From Periweissella cryptocerci (lineage in GTDB: Bacteria > Bacillota > Bacilli > Lactobacillales > Lactobacillaceae), in the NCBI RefSeq assembly GCF_004358325.1, contig NZ_CP037940.1:744001-808000 (forward strand): a DNA stretch of 64,000 bases, in the 5' to 3' direction. The notes under the pieces are model-generated. The model was not told the DNA's origin. It saw only the letters and a program-made list of their open reading frames with translations, and did no database searches. The position numbers and the translations under genes were made by a program. Shown in pieces: positions 3,778 through 61,054 of this stretch. Each line of letters begins with the position of its first letter. Within the stretch, counting starts at the first letter, position 1.

Positions 3778-4053
3778 GGCTAAATTTTTTCTAGCGTGTA
3801 ATTTGGATATGTGTCCCATATTGATTCCCACTGCGAGGCTAGAACCAGTCTGGACACCGTGATGGAAGACAAGCATTTGAAGCCAAAGTGCGGTCTTCAA
3901 TTGTTTGCGAAGCTTGGCTCGCTAACGCGGTAACCATCTTCACAAATCCATAATCAGTAACGAAACCCGTTACTGATTATGCCATCACGGTGCAAGCTAC
4001 AGTCCAGCCTCTTCGTTAGTTTGCGTAGGCATTCTGACTAGTAATATGCCTTA
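3778..4053. repeat. Dispersed structured repeat, copy 1 (module A, right end lost)
   Basis: About 260 bases closely matching 13551-13850 and 60533-60835. The left end (GGCTAAATTTTTTCTAGCG) resembles the inverted-repeat ends of the other copies. The core has a perfect 11-bp outer stem (CACCGTGATGG at 3855-3865 with CCATCACGGTG at 3982-3992). Inside are hairpins CATTTGAAG/CTTCAATTG (one mismatch), GCGA/TCGC, and an 11-bp AATCAGTAACG/CGTTACTGATT stem. No open reading frame. Similarity stops after GACTAGTAATATGCC and no right inverted repeat is seen. It lies between the ABC-operon terminator and tRNA-Arg. Confidence 0.85.
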
Positions 4054-7218: not shown

Positions 7219-7731
7219 CAGATTCTAGCATAGGATTGTTGTTTCTGTATGTTTGTTTAAGAATACTCACGTACCACGGAATATCTCTTGTACTAGTTTA
7301 AGCACATCACATAATCAGCCCTAACTGATTTGATTGAACCTGCCCCAGCGACTTTTTTTGCTAGTTTGAACATTATTCCTAACTAACGGAGTGGCTGGAA
7401 ATTGCTTGGCGGGCGTAGCCTTTACACCGCGACTGGGGGACTATGTGTGCAGCACATATTTCCGCTGAGGATAAGATGAGGAATCTTAGGAATTTATTCC
7501 TTAGAGTCCCAGCTTGTCCGAACCTCCCAAGACAGACATTCAGCCTGCAAGGCTAATCTAATCACGTTAGGATTAGATTCAGTATTTTGTGCAACAAAAT
7601 GCTGGGATGTTTTGCGTTGCCGGTTCGCAGGCATAAGCACAGACTGGCTTGAACATGTGCTTCCAGCGCGGTGCGCCAAGTAATTTACTGACACGTAGTG
7701 GTCACAATCCCACGCCAGACGGAATACAGCC
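7219..7731. repeat. Dispersed structured repeat, copy 2 (modules C + B, both ends present)
   Basis: The left end is TTCTAGCATAGGATTG. The right end at 7706-7731 (AATCCCACGCCAGACG plus GAATACAGCC) matches the right inverted repeat of the 60.9-kb copy at most positions. Module C (about 7235-7385) repeats at 55941-56125, with an AATCAG/CTGATT hairpin and a long interrupted stem. Module B (about 7385-7700) repeats at 13880-14250. It is a chain of hairpins: GCGG/CCGC, ATGTG/CACAT, a 13-base imperfect stem near 7480-7510, AATCTAATC/GATTAGATT and ATTTTGT/ACAAAAT. A minus-strand frame at 7494-7784 is a by-product of this sequence. Confidence 0.82.
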
Positions 7732-13550: not shown

Positions 13551-14259
13551 CGCTAAAATTTTTCTAGCGTGGAATTTGGATATGTGTCTCAAATTGATTC
13601 CCACTACGAGGCTGGAACCAGTCTGGACACCGTGATGGAAGACAAGCATTTGAAGCCACAGTGCGGTCTTCAAATGTTTGCGAAGCTTGGTTCGCTAACG
13701 CGGTAACCATCTTCACAAATCCATAATCAGTAACGAAACCTGTTACTGATTATGCCATCACGGTGCGAGCTAAAGTCCAGCCTGTTTCCAGCCTCTTCGT
13801 TAGTTTGAGCAGGCTGTCTGACTAGTAATATGCCGTAATCCTTGTCGTTGCAAGTTTAGCGGTAATCAATAATTCCACGCATATCTAGCGGAGTGACTGA
13901 AAATCACTTTGTGGCCGGCAGGCTTTACACTTGACACGTGTCGCGAGCCGACCGGCCTTATTTGTCCAGCGTAGCTACAAATGTGAGCAGTCTTTTGGCT
14001 TTAGCCATTAGACTGCCAGCTATCCCGAATTGCCCAAGACAGACATTCAGCCTGGAAGGCTAATCTAATCGGGTTTTGATTAGATTCAGTTGTTTGTTGC
14101 AAACAAACTGCTGGAATGTTTTGCGTTGCCGTACCTCAGGCATAAGCAAGCGGCTTGGGCATGTGCTTCCATCTCGGTGCACAATGTGATTTTCTGGCAC
14201 GCAGTGGCATCATACATCTCATCACATTTAATAAATTTCATGTCAAACGAAATAGAGCC
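13551..14259. repeat. Dispersed structured repeat, copy 3 (modules A + B, both ends present)
   Basis: The largest copy. The left end (TTTTTCTAGCGTGGAATT) and the right end at 14234-14259 (AATTTCATGTCAAACGAAAT plus AGAGCC) are degenerate inverted repeats. Module A (13601-13860) has the 11-bp CACCGTGATGG/CCATCACGGTG stem and AATCAGTAAC/GTTACTGATT, with one C-to-T change that keeps a G-U pair. An internal AATTCCACGC followed by TCTAGCG near 13870-13890 looks like a junction of two element ends. Module B (13880-14250) has stems GGCCGG/CCGGCC, ATTTGT/ACAAAT, GCAGTCT/AGACTGC, AATCTAATC/GATTAGATT and TTGTTTG/CAAACAA. No gene inside. Confidence 0.85.
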
Positions 14260-46966: not shown

Positions 46967-49453
46967 CTATTTGTCACCCTTCTTACGACGTTTTGCCGCA
47001 CCAAGGCCTAAGAATCCCAATAATGTGACACCTAATGCAGCCAACCAGTTATCGCTCTTTGATTCACCAGTTTGTGGCAAGCGATTTTGGTTGCTTCCAG
47101 TAGCTGATGAAAGTGGTGTAGTTGCTGTCTTAGTTTCAACATTCGTCGCCAAATTCGTGGGCATTGCCGTCGTGATGGTTGTTCCCCCACCTACCGTAGC
47201 AGTCGGTGTTGTCGCAACTTCAGAAATTAATGGTGCTTTTTTTGGTGTGCTTGGGGCAACTTTTTTAATGTCCTCAGGGATATTACTTGTTGGTGGCACA
47301 GGAACATCTTCGCCCGGTGTCCGCGTAATATCTTCATTAGGGAATGGTGTCAATGGTGCTTCCGGTGTAACAGGTTCACCTGGTATCTCCGGATTTGTTG
47401 GCGTATCTGGTTCCGCTGGTACTTCCGGATTCGTTGGCGTATCAGGTTTTGCTGGTACTTCCGGATTCGTTGGTGTGTCAGGTTCCGCCGGTACTTCCGG
47501 TGTTATTGGTGTATCAGGAACCTTATCCTTACCCGTTGCCTTGGCGTTAAACCAAGTGTAATCGTGAGTAGTTGTCGTGTAAGTGTATTGCGTATACGTT
47601 ACCTTTGTTTCTTGTTTGGTTGAAGTATACGTTGGCCGGACAACATCAAATAATTGTGCTGGTGCTTGCACGCTCATGCGGAAATCCATCCCGTAATTTG
47701 ATGCGCCAGTAGCAAAATCTTGATCATCAGAGCCAGCTGCAAGTTCAAACATGCTAGCGTGGTGAGTGTAGAACGAACCGTTATAATTGTTCCAATCAAT
47801 CACGACAATTGCGTGCCGACCGCCAGCAACTGCTGGAATATCGTAGTAGCCGGTATATACCTTACCATTTATGTTAATTGATCCGGCATTATACGTCCCT
47901 TGAGCTGGAATTCCGTTAAATTGAATATTCAGCGCATTAAAGATTTGCGCCACAAGTTGTGGGTTATATGATGATGACGCTGGATTAATCGCTTGATCAA
48001 ACGCACCGCTGTTAACTGCATCTTGCGTAATTTGCACCGTAATATTGGAGTTGAAGGTACCCTTAGTTGTGCCATCACCCGTATTAACAGATTGTTGTGA
48101 ATCAGAATTAAGCACACTAATTGGCGCCGTTGTTGTACTTGATGAAGCCACGACTTTTGCATCATTAAAAGTCCCCTTCAATGCATCAGCAGCAGCTTGC
48201 GTCAAGCCAGATCCGCCACTAACAACCGCAGTACTACCAGTTGCAACCGCATTTGAGCCAGGTGTCAATTGATCTTTAAAGACTGGCGTGGTATCAACTG
48301 GTACCGTTGAAGTAGTTGATGTGTAACTACCAGCTGGTAATCCTGGCACCATATCAACATTGGTAAATGTTTGTTGCCCAGTTACCGTCACATCGGTATC
48401 GGCCGCCACATCCTTAGTTGGATCCACGTAACTTGTTTTAGGATCACTTGTGGTTGTTTGGTCGTTGAACAGACCGGCCGCTTGTAAGTCTGCAGGAACA
48501 TCAGCTAGACTAGTCGAATTTCCCATCGTCGTTGCGCCATCAAGTTGAATGTCTTCTTGATCAGGGTTCGCATTGGTGTAATCAGCAATCGCCTTAGCCT
48601 CAGTCTTAGCTTGTAAATCAGCCAATGAATCTGTTGCAGCTACAGCCGGCGCTGCCGTCTTCAATGCGGTTACGCTAGCAGTAGTAACTACCGGTGTTGC
48701 GACTGCTGCTTGAACTACTGGTGTGGCTGCAGTATCAGCCTGAACTGCCGGTGTACTTGCTTCAGCTTGAACGGCTGGAGTAGCGGCTTGTGTCGTTGCA
48801 ACTGCAGTTGTATCTGCTATTTTTTCAGTCGCCGTAGTGTCATCGGCGTCTTTATCAGCTGCAATGTTTGCGTGCAACTTAATGTTAATTTTATCTTTCT
48901 TAGCTCCAGTTGTAGCTTTAACTGGGAGACTAACCGTTGCATTTTGGTCATCAGTTTTTTCAACTGATGTTGGTTCATCTTCATCATAGACAGTTGAAGC
49001 GTTCAACTTCACCCCTGCGGCTTTACCAATCGTTTGCTTACCGACCCGTGTGCCGGCACCATATTTGGCAGCTGCTTTGGTAACTCCATCAAAGTGCTTA
49101 ACCGCATCTTCTTTTGATACAGCATTTGAATAGTTGACGTTAACTGTATTGTGTTCCGTCTTATATCCGGTTTGGGTTGAAGTTGCATTCTCGTAGTTGG
49201 CAGTCTGACCTTCATCAACCCCTTGGGCAGTTACGGCAGCTTGGGCATCTGAATCATCTTGCGTGTTACCATCGTTACTACCGCTAGTTGAATCAGCCGA
49301 AACGCCAGCAATATTTGAATTACTCATCATAAACATTGAGGCAGCCGCAACCCCAGCACCTAACCAAATTTTTGTGTTTTTTGAGTTCTTAGCATTTTTT
49401 ATTTCTGTGTCTTCAGTTGTTTGCATTTTCAAATCTTTTTCATTCACTGTCAT
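46967..49453 (-). CDS. LPXTG-anchored cell-surface protein
   Basis: An 828-residue surface protein. The N-terminal signal (about 1-53) has the extended form KNAKNSKNTKIWLGAGVAAA seen in large Gram-positive surface proteins. A disordered Ala/Thr/Val-rich region (about 60-290) follows. A folded part (about 480-640) contains GRHAIVVIDWNNYNGSFYTH. Pro-rich repeats (PEVPAEPDTPTN units, four copies near 655-710) span the wall. The sorting signal is LPQTG at about 792-796 with a membrane helix and RRKKGDK tail. Sortase should link it to peptidoglycan. The leader carries a 38-bp tandem repeat. Confidence 0.9.
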   Translation of the reverse strand: MTVNEKDLKMQTTEDTEIKNAKNSKNTKIWLGAGVAAASMFMMSNSNIAGVSADSTSGSNDGNTQDDSDAQAAVTAQGVDEGQTANYENATSTQTGYKTEHNTVNVNYSNAVSKEDAVKHFDGVTKAAAKYGAGTRVGKQTIGKAAGVKLNASTVYDEDEPTSVEKTDDQNATVSLPVKATTGAKKDKINIKLHANIAADKDADDTTATEKIADTTAVATTQAATPAVQAEASTPAVQADTAATPVVQAAVATPVVTTASVTALKTAAPAVAATDSLADLQAKTEAKAIADYTNANPDQEDIQLDGATTMGNSTSLADVPADLQAAGLFNDQTTTSDPKTSYVDPTKDVAADTDVTVTGQQTFTNVDMVPGLPAGSYTSTTSTVPVDTTPVFKDQLTPGSNAVATGSTAVVSGGSGLTQAAADALKGTFNDAKVVASSSTTTAPISVLNSDSQQSVNTGDGTTKGTFNSNITVQITQDAVNSGAFDQAINPASSSYNPQLVAQIFNALNIQFNGIPAQGTYNAGSININGKVYTGYYDIPAVAGGRHAIVVIDWNNYNGSFYTHHASMFELAAGSDDQDFATGASNYGMDFRMSVQAPAQLFDVVRPTYTSTKQETKVTYTQYTYTTTTHDYTWFNAKATGKDKVPDTPITPEVPAEPDTPTNPEVPAKPDTPTNPEVPAEPDTPTNPEIPGEPVTPEAPLTPFPNEDITRTPGEDVPVPPTSNIPEDIKKVAPSTPKKAPLISEVATTPTATVGGGTTITTAMPTNLATNVETKTATTPLSSATGSNQNRLPQTGESKSDNWLAALGVTLLGFLGLGAAKRRKKGDK

Positions 49454-49464
49454 TTTCGTATTTT

Positions 49465-49618
49465 CTCCTCATAATTTCATTAAATTCGGATAGCCCGGAC
49501 GGCTCCTCATAATTTCATTGTATTCGGATAGCCCAGATGGCTCCTCATAATTTCAATAAACTCAGAACTGATTCTTTAAATCGACACGTAGTCGATTTCG
49601 TAGACCAGATGGCTCCTC
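49465..49618 (-). repeat. Tandem repeats of a leader containing the ribosome binding site
   Basis: The block with ATGAAATTATGAGGAG on the minus strand occurs at 49465, 49503, 49541 and, diverged, 49613 (plus-strand CTCCTC positions). Spacings are 38, 38 and 72 bases. The first sits at the ribosome binding site of the LPXTG gene, so the Shine-Dalgarno sequence has been copied upstream three times. The units include AGCC/GGCT pairs that could fold against the site. A perfect AAATCGAC/GTCGATTT hairpin lies between the last two units. Confidence 0.85.
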
Positions 49619-49641
49619 AGCATTTCATTATCTGTTTAATT

Positions 49642-49757
49642 GCTATTTATTCTAGCGTGGGATTGTCGTTTCCGTACTTTTCAAGTATCGAATTACCGAG
49701 TTTCTATTGTCGGTGTTGTTTTTTTCGTGCTACTACGGTCTCAGACGAAATAAACCC
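49642..49757. repeat. Dispersed structured repeat, miniature copy (both ends, inner part mostly lost)
   Basis: The left end TTCTAGCGTGGGATTGTCG, then TTTCCGTACTTTTC, matches the left part of module C. The right end CTCAGACGAAATAAACCC matches the outer right inverted repeat (CAGACGAAATAGAGCC). Only about 116 bases separate the outer limits. It lies immediately after the stop of the 49773-50774 gene. Confidence 0.6.
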
Positions 49758-55925: not shown

Positions 55926-55940
55926 GCTCTTGTACGAATT

Positions 55941-56144
55941 TTTTATTCTAGCGTAGGATTCTCATTTCTGTACTTTGGTTTAAGGATATTCATGTACCCA
56001 CGGAATATACCTTAAGCACTCGTTTTTGCACATCACAAAATCAGCGATAACTGATTTGATTGAATCTACACCTTACGATTGTTTTTTCTAGTTAGCGAAT
56101 TATTACTAACTAACGCAGTGGCCAATTTTATTCAATTCCACGTT
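55941..56144. repeat. Dispersed structured repeat, copy 4 (module C only, both ends present)
   Basis: The left end ATTCTAGCGTAGGATT and the right end AATTCCACGTT (56134-56144) are degenerate inverted repeats. Module C matches 7223-7385. Its long stem TTAAGG-ATATTC / GAATAT-CCTTAA contains AAGG/CCTT where the 7.2-kb copy has AAGA/TCTT. The AATCAG/CTGATT hairpin near 56040 is also shared. The right end joins the next terminator directly. No gene inside. Confidence 0.78.
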
Positions 56145-56182
56145 AAAAAGCTCGATTTCTTCTTACAGAAATCGAGCTTTTT
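56145..56182 (-). terminator. Terminator of the antiporter gene
   Basis: Perfect 15-bp stem AAAAAGCTCGATTTC / GAAATCGAGCTTTTT. Confidence 0.93.
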
Positions 56183-59510: not shown

Positions 59511-60431
59511 CTATTCTTTATTTTGGATATCGGTAATAAATTGGTCAGCTAACCGGTGCGTCGCAATCGCAGATGTAGGGTCCACTGGATTTTTACCATG
59601 CTCGGTTACCGCTACTAAAAATGCTTTAACCATTGGTGCAAATCCCCGCACTTCCAAAGTTGGTGTCCAATCTGGAAAATGTTCAACTTGCACACTAGTT
59701 CCTGCTTGCCACGTTGAACTCGTCAAATTATTAATATCGACTAGGCCAGCATCGTAATTAAAGCGCACATGCTCATCATTATATCCAGTCACCATGTTCA
59801 TCGTAACAAACGCCGAGCCTTGTGGTAAAGCTAACGTCGCCGTCGCCCGCAATAAATTACCATCAGCATCGACTTGCACATTGCCATACGCGTACGCTGC
59901 CGTTGGCGCTAAAAATAATGCGGTATCAAACATGTGGAGCATCAAATCATACACGACAAATTTCCATGGTTGATAAGTGCCGATGCGATTTTTTTCAACA
60001 ATTAGTTGATTGGGCACGCCAAGTTCGTGTAAGTTTGCATTCATCGGTGCAAACCGTCGATTGAATCCAACCGTTAACATCAAGTGGCGTTCCTCTGCTA
60101 AGGCGTATAATGCTTCAACTTCAGCTAAATTTTCTGAAAGTGGTTTATCAACGAACACATTAATATCATGCAATAACAAGGTTCGCACAATCATCGCGTG
60201 ACTAGCCGTAGCGGTATGCACCATGACTGCAACCGGCTGTTGCGCAATCAATGCCGCCAAATCCGGTACTGTCGCCTTAAAATTATACTTAGCTTGTAAG
60301 GCGGTCAACTTATTGTGATCGCGGGTTGTTAGCACAAAATAATATTGGTCTTGCAGCGTCGCATAGACTGGTAAATACGCTTTTTGGGCGATTCCGCCTA
60401 AGCCCACGACCCCAATTGTTTGCTTTTCCAT
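59511..60431 (-). CDS. Gfo/Idh/MocA family oxidoreductase
   Basis: A 306-residue NAD(P)-binding dehydrogenase-like protein with TIGVVGLGGIAQKAYLPVYA at the N-terminus (GxGxxG) and FVDKPLSENLAEVEALY carrying the EKP-like DKP. Substrate unknown. The start at 60431 has AGGTGG upstream; an ATG three codons earlier is less well placed. It heads the oxidoreductase-murB pair. Repeat copy 5 lies just upstream. Confidence 0.88.
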   Translation of the reverse strand: MEKQTIGVVGLGGIAQKAYLPVYATLQDQYYFVLTTRDHNKLTALQAKYNFKATVPDLAALIAQQPVAVMVHTATASHAMIVRTLLLHDINVFVDKPLSENLAEVEALYALAEERHLMLTVGFNRRFAPMNANLHELGVPNQLIVEKNRIGTYQPWKFVVYDLMLHMFDTALFLAPTAAYAYGNVQVDADGNLLRATATLALPQGSAFVTMNMVTGYNDEHVRFNYDAGLVDINNLTSSTWQAGTSVQVEHFPDWTPTLEVRGFAPMVKAFLVAVTEHGKNPVDPTSAIATHRLADQFITDIQNKE

Positions 60432-60532
60432 CACATCCACCTACTTTCATAAATCATCTGCCTACATTTTACCAGATTTTCCGGTAGTGCATGCGTCGAA
60501 GTGCTAAATAGTAGCTGCCAAAGCTAATTTTC

Positions 60533-60907
60533 GGTTCTACTTCGTCTGACGTGGAATTGAATAAACTTGACCACTACGAGGCTGGAACCAGTCTGGACAC
60601 CGTGATGGAAGACAAGCATTTGAAGCCACAGTGCGGTCTTCAAATGTTTGCGAAGCTTGGTTCGCTAACGCGGTAACCATCTTCACAAATCCATAATCAG
60701 TAACGAAACCCGTTACTGATTATGCCATCACGGTGCGAGCTAAAGTCCAGCCTGTTTCCAGCCTCTTCGTTAGTTTGCGTAGGCATTCAGACTAGTAATA
60801 TGCCGTAATCCTTGTCGCTGCAAGTTTAGCGGTAATTAATAATTCCACGCAGTGACATCATAAATCTCATCACTTTTTATAAATTCCACGTCAGACGAAA
60901 TAGAGCC
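60533..60907. repeat. Dispersed structured repeat, copy 5 (module A, best terminal inverted repeats)
   Basis: The ends are 26-bp inverted repeats with two mismatches: left 60533-60558 (ends CGTCTGACGTGGAATT), right 60882-60907 (begins AATTCCACGTCAGACG). Module A (about 60571-60840) is nearly identical to that at 13.6 kb, with the 11-bp outer stem and the perfect AATCAGTAACG/CGTTACTGATT stem. After it come an internal AATTCCACGC and the tail CAGTGACATCATAAATCTCA, which is also the end of the 13.6-kb copy. Module B is missing between them. No gene inside. Confidence 0.88.
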
Positions 60908-60942
60908 GATAAATGGCCACTATTTTCAACTCACTACTGCAC

Positions 60943-60969
60943 AAAAAAAGCCCGACATCTCTGCCAGAC
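60943..60969 (-). terminator. Terminator downstream of tRNA-Val
   Basis: GTCTGGCA/TGTCGGGC stem with wobble pairs, then T7 on the minus strand. Confidence 0.75.
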
Positions 60970-60981
60970 CTTTTGATATGA

Positions 60982-61054
60982 TGGAAGATACAGGGCTCGA
61001 ACCTGTGACCCTCTGCTTGTAAGGCAGACGCTCTCCCAACTGAGCTAATCTTCC
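60982..61054 (-). tRNA. tRNA-Val (anticodon TAC)
   Basis: Minus-strand cloverleaf: acceptor GGAAGAT/ATCTTCC, D arm GCTC-AGTTGGGA-GAGC, anticodon stem TCTGC/GCAGA with loop CTTACAA (anticodon TAC), T arm ACAGG-TTCGAGC-CCTGT. Discriminator A; CCA not encoded. Confidence 0.97.

Follow-up and report, generated by a model that had tools for sequence, protein, structure and literature searches.

A gene-free mobile repeat family in a Lactobacillaceae genome shares its ends with ISL3 insertion sequences and carries conserved multi-hairpin modules

The window analysed in this work is a stretch of 64 kb, positions 744001-808000 of a single-contig Lactobacillaceae genome of 3.02 Mb, and it contains copies and remnants of a repeat, referred to here as Family A and related elements (Table 1). 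The copy at 60.5 kb has terminal inverted repeats of 26 bp with exactly two mismatches (24/26), as a preliminary description of this DNA had stated. It is an atypical member, since both of its ends are of the right type and its flanks, TAATTTTC and GATAAATG, form no target duplication. When the folding of this copy was compared with that of shuffled sequences, z values of -13.0 and -9.6 were obtained, one per strand and both far below the shuffles. A consensus scan of 60400-61000 revealed no promoter-like or terminator-like sites. Inside the copy lies a folded module, m1, recognised by the model R1; the 33 modules behind this model come from the other genera g4, g16 and g55, and none is from the genome under study. 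Searched against the window at E <=1, R1 finds exactly three Family A cores, with E values from 9e-6 to 2.6e-5, and nothing else; elsewhere it also finds B copies.

Table 1. Repeat elements and their modules in the 64-kb window (window coordinates)
Feature	Position	Strand	Remarks
Family A copy without its right half	3778..4053	+	R1 match 3840-4005, E 9e-6
Related element	7219..7731	+	left end decayed, start approximate; good right end
Full-length Family A copy, 709 bp	13551..14259	+	modules m1 and m2; ATTTAAAC on both flanks
Module m1 of the 13.6-kb copy	13601..13800	+	R1 match 13613-13778, E 2.6e-5
Module m2 of the 13.6-kb copy (second, inverted)	13882..14210	-	end approximate
Truncated related element	49639..49757	+	left end and right-end remnant; bounds by eye
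Module-less related element	55935..56147	+	decayed right end; bounds by eye
Family A copy, 375 bp	60533..60907	+	both ends right-type, no target duplication
Module m1 of the 60.5-kb copy (folded)	60571..60770	+	R1 match 60583-60748, E 9.1e-6
Signature hairpin hp1 in the 60.5-kb copy	60617..60646	+	AGCC-loop-CGGTCT with a bulged T

Within the window, two-end detection was passed by 13551-14259 and 60533-60907 only. The flanking duplication of the former is seen when one lost base is allowed, and four mismatches appear without that shift. According to the preliminary description, related ends bound sequences at four further sites; this proved right at 13.6 kb, whereas the left end at 7.2 kb is decayed and the elements at 49.6 and 55.9 kb are truncated. 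The left end noticed at 3.8 kb does belong to a copy, and the cores described as shared do recur, at 3.8 and 13.6 kb in the window and 76 times genome-wide (core pattern with up to three mismatches; none in the control). The element at 7.2 kb includes an m2-like half that shows 79% identity with the 13.6-kb copy across 227 bp. Two other repeats were observed in this region: a tandem repeat with a unit of about 41 bp (GGATAGCCC..GGCTCCTCATAATTTCATT) at 49480-49630, upstream of the 49.6-kb remnant, and two overlapping 83-bp copies, 79% identical, at 47364-47518 within a long reading frame.

Right ends of the family number at least 111 in the genome, with none in the control, and at least 133 in a second listing. 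Nineteen full-length copies were aligned to give a consensus of 737 bp, and elements reach about 745 bp. The longest open frame of the consensus has 61 codons, and the copies are non-coding, in agreement with the earlier statement that none carries a gene. The typical ends, GGCTAAAATTTTTCTAGCGTGGAATTT and GGCTCTATTTCGTCTGACGTGGAATTT, are asymmetric and match at 20 of 27 positions (own count). A weight-matrix scan of fetched stretches yielded 120 end pairs, reduced to 114 by the removal of shared ends and to 109 oriented pairs. Perfect 8-bp target duplications flank 39 of these 109, against a chance expectation of about 2e-5 per pair; they are AT-rich and their logo is symmetric (p 0.86). The right ends often adjoin terminator-like hairpins, yet often they do not, and a confinement of insertion to terminator U-tracts was rejected.

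The preliminary description had proposed searches for further copies, target duplications, empty sites and a transposon with the same ends. Copies and duplications were found as given above. Empty sites were obtained in part: among 40 copies tested, one has uninterrupted related sites, and these lie elsewhere in the same genome. The copy in question is a 374-bp element inserted in an approximately 80-bp hairpin repeat whose uninterrupted relatives occur elsewhere in the genome. This terminator-like hairpin repeat is a separate one, dispersed in the genome (e.g., at 140229, 1958253 and 2422010). The search for copies in relatives gave the opposite result, as none of four genus mates (genomes of 1.8-2.0 Mb) carries a Family A copy. 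The genome studied here is larger than theirs, and the 109 paired elements total just 57 kb.

The transposon with the same ends is an ISL3-family insertion sequence. A search of the genome for ISL3 transposases gave 22 matches. Both Family A ends, left and right, are present on six complete insertion sequences (1530-1537 bp), and the right end is also present on one fragment. Perfect 8-bp duplications flank all six complete copies, of which three retain an uninterrupted long frame. The 435-aa transposase matches Pfam PF01610 (ISL3) with an E value of 7.2e-45 and 154.1 bits, against a cut-off of 23; its only named relative, at 47% identity, is from Paucilactobacillus nenjiangensis, in a collection that may omit the genome studied here. 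The ends are all that the repeat and its partner insertion sequence have in common. No module was found in the three partner insertion sequences searched with R1, the one R1 match (L061) being a neighbouring element. A second ISL3 group, insertion sequences and fragments ending in TTGACACAGAGCC, was observed at nine loci in mixed orientation by eye (L055, L057, L060, L062, L063, L065/L066, L069/L073, L070/L072 and L071/L076).

The repeats thus constitute a family of non-autonomous, gene-free transposons that have asymmetric ends and 8-bp duplications and are accompanied in the genome by ISL3 elements with the same ends. Four features of a miniature inverted-repeat transposable element (MITE) are present: short non-coding sequence, terminal inverted repeats, target duplication and an autonomous partner sharing the ends. 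The MITE interpretation offered earlier is supported by copy number, by target duplications, by the one copy with uninterrupted related sites and by this partner, and the family is very probably mobilised by the ISL3 insertion sequence. Two features reach further than that interpretation, namely the folded module found across genera and the orientation bias. Rfam, plasmid and literature searches returned no match or description. In Rfam 15, only tRNA was found, both for the window at the gathering threshold and for six loci at E <=1. Three queries gave no module on plasmids, and none was present on viral contigs as an exact pattern.

The elements carry one or two multi-hairpin modules, and these belong to a family present in several Lactobacillaceae genera on carriers with differing outer ends. 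With up to two mismatches allowed, the hairpin hp1 was detected in 32 of the 397 Lactobacillaceae genomes (the present one included), belonging to 6 of 40 genera, genus g5 being counted on one candidate match alone. There are 86 occurrences in the present genome and at most 45 in any other, while the reversed control gives 0 or 1 per genome. By sequence, the core part matches short stretches in 6 of 396 other genomes of the family (E <=0.001). In five of these six, the surroundings are unlike but the multi-hairpin plan is the same, and the stretch forms part of one of the hairpins; in G180, the sixth, this is not so. Among 398 Bacilli genomes, searched with strict filters and including few close kin, a module match was found in the present genome alone.

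Conservation of the fold was assessed on hp1 hits, for which the motif AGCC..CGGTCT and three or more flanking pairs were required. From 78 such hits, 55 remained after near-duplicates were dropped, and 33 of these, making up most of those that have three hairpins, entered the alignment. Its 21 pairs are formed in 89.8% of cells, and 16 pairs are changed on both sides, a number reached by one of 500 shuffles; the covariation score is 0.381, against 0.140 in shuffles (0/500) and at most 0.141 when the alignment is slid. The choice of sequences by hp1 partly ascertains the inner pairs and the bulge of that hairpin, and covariation was therefore counted on helix P4 alone, which played no part in the selection. 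In P4, both-side changes affect 9 of 10 pairs (0/500 shuffles), and the score is 0.398 against 0.168 in shuffles (0/500) and at most 0.176 when slid, while the number of further pair types was equalled in 36 of 500 shuffles. Relatedness among modules can inflate such counts. The outer stem is an independent support for the fold: at least 12 of 14 positions pair in 38 of 55 modules, as compared with 2 of 150 mixed arms, and the arms are just 32% alike between modules, so that pairing is maintained without sequence conservation.

Irregular positions are conserved as well. The C-T mismatch of P4 is retained in 31 of 33 modules. All 71 hp1 hairpins scanned have a bulge of one base, which is T in 70 of them; the scan would also have accepted no base or two and left the base free, on loci fetched by a pattern holding that T with up to two mismatches. 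On the motif strand, non-Watson-Crick cells comprise 47 A-C and 14 G-T (cross-genus, two helix sets). Within the present genome, the same asymmetry is confounded by strand mutation bias, and hence the cross-genus count alone was relied upon. Of the 55 modules, 50 were folded, and in 41 of these the strand complementary to the hp1 motif folded lower than the motif strand; it is this complement that seems to be the folded strand. Double changes among copies of the present genome are few, 3 cells in m1 and 17 in m2. What recurs in other genera is the shape more than the sequence, which suggests that the fold as such is important.

The carriers of the module differ between genera. In genus g55, convergent module pairs lie in elements of about 390 bp ending in ACGCTTGGTGCTAGTTG. 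Among the loci scanned there, three 8-bp duplications were seen, two of them perfect and the third with a single mismatch. ISL3 was rejected as the mover of these elements: of three genomes searched, the transposase is absent from G233 and G215, and one is present in G334. The module pairs of genus g16 are not bounded by any convincing terminal repeats or target duplications, and inspection by eye of the flanks of six loci revealed none either. Terminal repeats proposed there by script were discarded, those at L048 and L210 being outer-stem arms and those at L225 and L226 weak pairs judged to be chance. An autonomous element between g16 modules 3.8-3.9 kb apart was likewise dismissed, as two such stretches hold ordinary-looking genes and no transposase was recognised. 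With two g55 genomes lacking the transposase and g16 lacking convincing ends, the ISL3 route is limited to the genome studied here. A detectable module pair, plus then minus, is present in 21 of 49 elements. In the present genome, elements with m1 only or with a B-type module only still have perfect duplications, and the pair is thus dispensable for transposition. Short copies at 785, 153622 and 874775 lack the module between the outer-stem arms and represent natural module-less derivatives.

The orientation of the copies is strongly biased. With the origin placed at dnaA (1.585 Mb), 73 of 76 cores follow the polarity of the replication arm, the three exceptions all lying within 20 kb of one another, and so do all 55 second-module matches (a few elements yield two pieces). 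Paired elements follow it in 58/60 cases for class A, 28/30 for B/other and 5/6 for the insertion sequences. For the module-less short class, separated from B/other by length at 260 bp, the count is 6/13, which takes in copies 785 and 2922385, whose expected polarity near the assumed terminus is uncertain. The difference between A plus B/other (86/90) and short elements is significant (Fisher p 2.3e-5). Among the former, 89 of 90 copies have a module by hp1 pattern or BLAST; 14 lack the hp1 pattern, 13 of these matching the module by BLAST and one, 2263353, matching none. As all 14 follow polarity, the link between bias and module is carried by the short class. A tally of 147 right ends in fetched stretches gave, outside A and the insertion sequences, 63 with polarity and 22 against.

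The bias also follows the neighbouring genes. Among elements between same-strand genes, taken from own codon-usage calls, 70 of 71 A plus B/other copies and 8 of 12 short elements have the genes running from their right end towards their left end; an earlier, cruder gene set gave 80 versus 2 for tandem genes. In gene-symmetric places, i.e., between convergent or divergent genes, the replication arm is followed by 15 of 17 A copies, 4 of 6 B/other copies and 1 of 2 insertion sequences (with the earlier gene set, 4 of 11 non-A elements). For the majority of copies, gene direction and replication are thus confounded. The behaviour of A copies in symmetric places speaks for replication, that of the module-less class for selection acting on the cargo. 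A and B modules point oppositely relative to the ends and yet show the same bias, a pattern for which a simple RNA-strand model does not account. In g55, modules show no orientation bias relative to genes (6 with, 7 against; own count, crude open-frame calls). Target sequence was rejected as a cause of orientation on account of the symmetric duplication logo.

Several other explanations deserve consideration. Hairpins are common in MITEs, and in an ordinary MITE family the fold might have no function and arise simply from nested inverted repeats, with template-switch repair keeping their arms complementary; the scarcity of double changes between copies of the present genome is in line with this. 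Copying of one arm from the other would, however, erase irregularities, whereas the P4 mismatch and the one-base bulge persist, the non-Watson-Crick cells are skewed between strands, and the helices are kept across genera despite unlike sequences. Such an origin is improbable. A somewhat less remote, but still unlikely, alternative sees in the module above all a family of structured RNA genes that several transposons captured and spread. The same fold in elements with unlike outer ends, and in g16 without convincing ends, points in this direction, as does the better folding of the hp1-strand complement. Against it stand the frequent inverted pairs, with one module per strand, and the lack of an Rfam family.

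Orientation could, on the other hand, be fixed at insertion by the replication fork, for instance through contact of the transposase with the beta clamp. Replication-linked orientation of transposable elements is generally known, that of IS200/IS605 tracks replication, and a transposase-beta clamp contact is reported to orient other insertion sequences by the fork, according to PMC5371812. Adherence of the cores to the replication arm, also among A copies in gene-symmetric places, would fit this mechanism, and the symmetric target duplication implies that target sequence is not the determinant. Moreover, the partner insertion sequences follow polarity in 5 of 6 cases, as compared with 5 of 9 in the second ISL3 group, which has other ends (own count). 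Nevertheless, the same ends without a module show no bias, B/other copies and insertion sequences in symmetric places follow the arm less clearly, and the transposase C-terminus has no clear QLxLF motif by eye. Fork-determined orientation is doubtful.

The most probable explanation, to which we assign a probability of roughly 0.8 on the basis of sequence analysis, is that this gene-free family is mobilised by the ISL3 element and carries a selected folded cargo; more tentatively, its orientation may reflect tolerance of transcription. The ISL3 transposase, as predicted from sequence, would bind the shared ends and move the repeats in trans into AT-rich intergenic sites. The module, whose sequence is unlike that of the insertion sequence, is presumably cargo rather than an end needed for transposition: it is absent from the insertion sequence, and elements with m1 alone or the B-type module alone nonetheless have perfect target duplications. 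Selection would act on its predicted folded form as a single strand, either RNA or DNA. Module-bearing copies might be tolerated almost solely when transcription enters at the right end, and oppositely oriented copies may have been lost or have shed the module. A bolder proposal, advanced only tentatively and with the odds somewhat against it, is that the modules form a novel class of functional folded nucleic acids residing on unrelated transposons in different Lactobacillaceae genera, with a working copy for each strand; their function, which might for instance be to make an insertion silent towards transcription or replication, would allow the host to tolerate dozens of copies and would select the orientation of these.

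The new part of the finding is the conserved folded cargo common to genera and carriers. Non-coding mobile repeats of bacteria are usually taken for debris, and here they hold a covariation-kept cargo shared between elements with differing ends. The module-less derivatives, being free of orientation bias, permit the role of the folded cargo to be tested, and insertion to be distinguished from selection as the source of orientation. Full-text searches, whose coverage is thin for subscription journals, returned no description of the repeat or the module.

Among known systems, REP/BIME and IS200/IS605-type elements are repeated intergenic hairpins with conserved irregular bases, resembling the modules, and IS200/IS605 shares the replication-linked orientation. 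To our knowledge, these elements lack target duplications and use single-strand transposition, whereas the present repeat has 8-bp duplications and inverted ends, which sets it apart from this type. The partner fits the ISL3 insertion sequences (PF01610, 8-bp duplications); the repeats differ in lacking a transposase and in having the ends alone in common with it. In a large survey, ISL3 elements are over-represented between same-strand genes (PMC9208149). MITEAba12, as presented in PMC6382973, is a 113-bp element with 16-bp repeats and a 9-bp duplication; like the repeat, it is non-coding, with terminal inverted repeats, target duplication and an autonomous insertion sequence proposed as the parent. 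The repeat differs from it in its length of up to about 745 bp, its 8-bp duplication, its conserved multi-hairpin modules and its strong orientation bias. Finally, the modules recall the large ornate RNAs GOLLD (a name that refers to Lactobacillales), ROOL and OLE, which are large conserved multi-helix structures; the module differs in having no Rfam match and in being spread in dozens of mobile copies.
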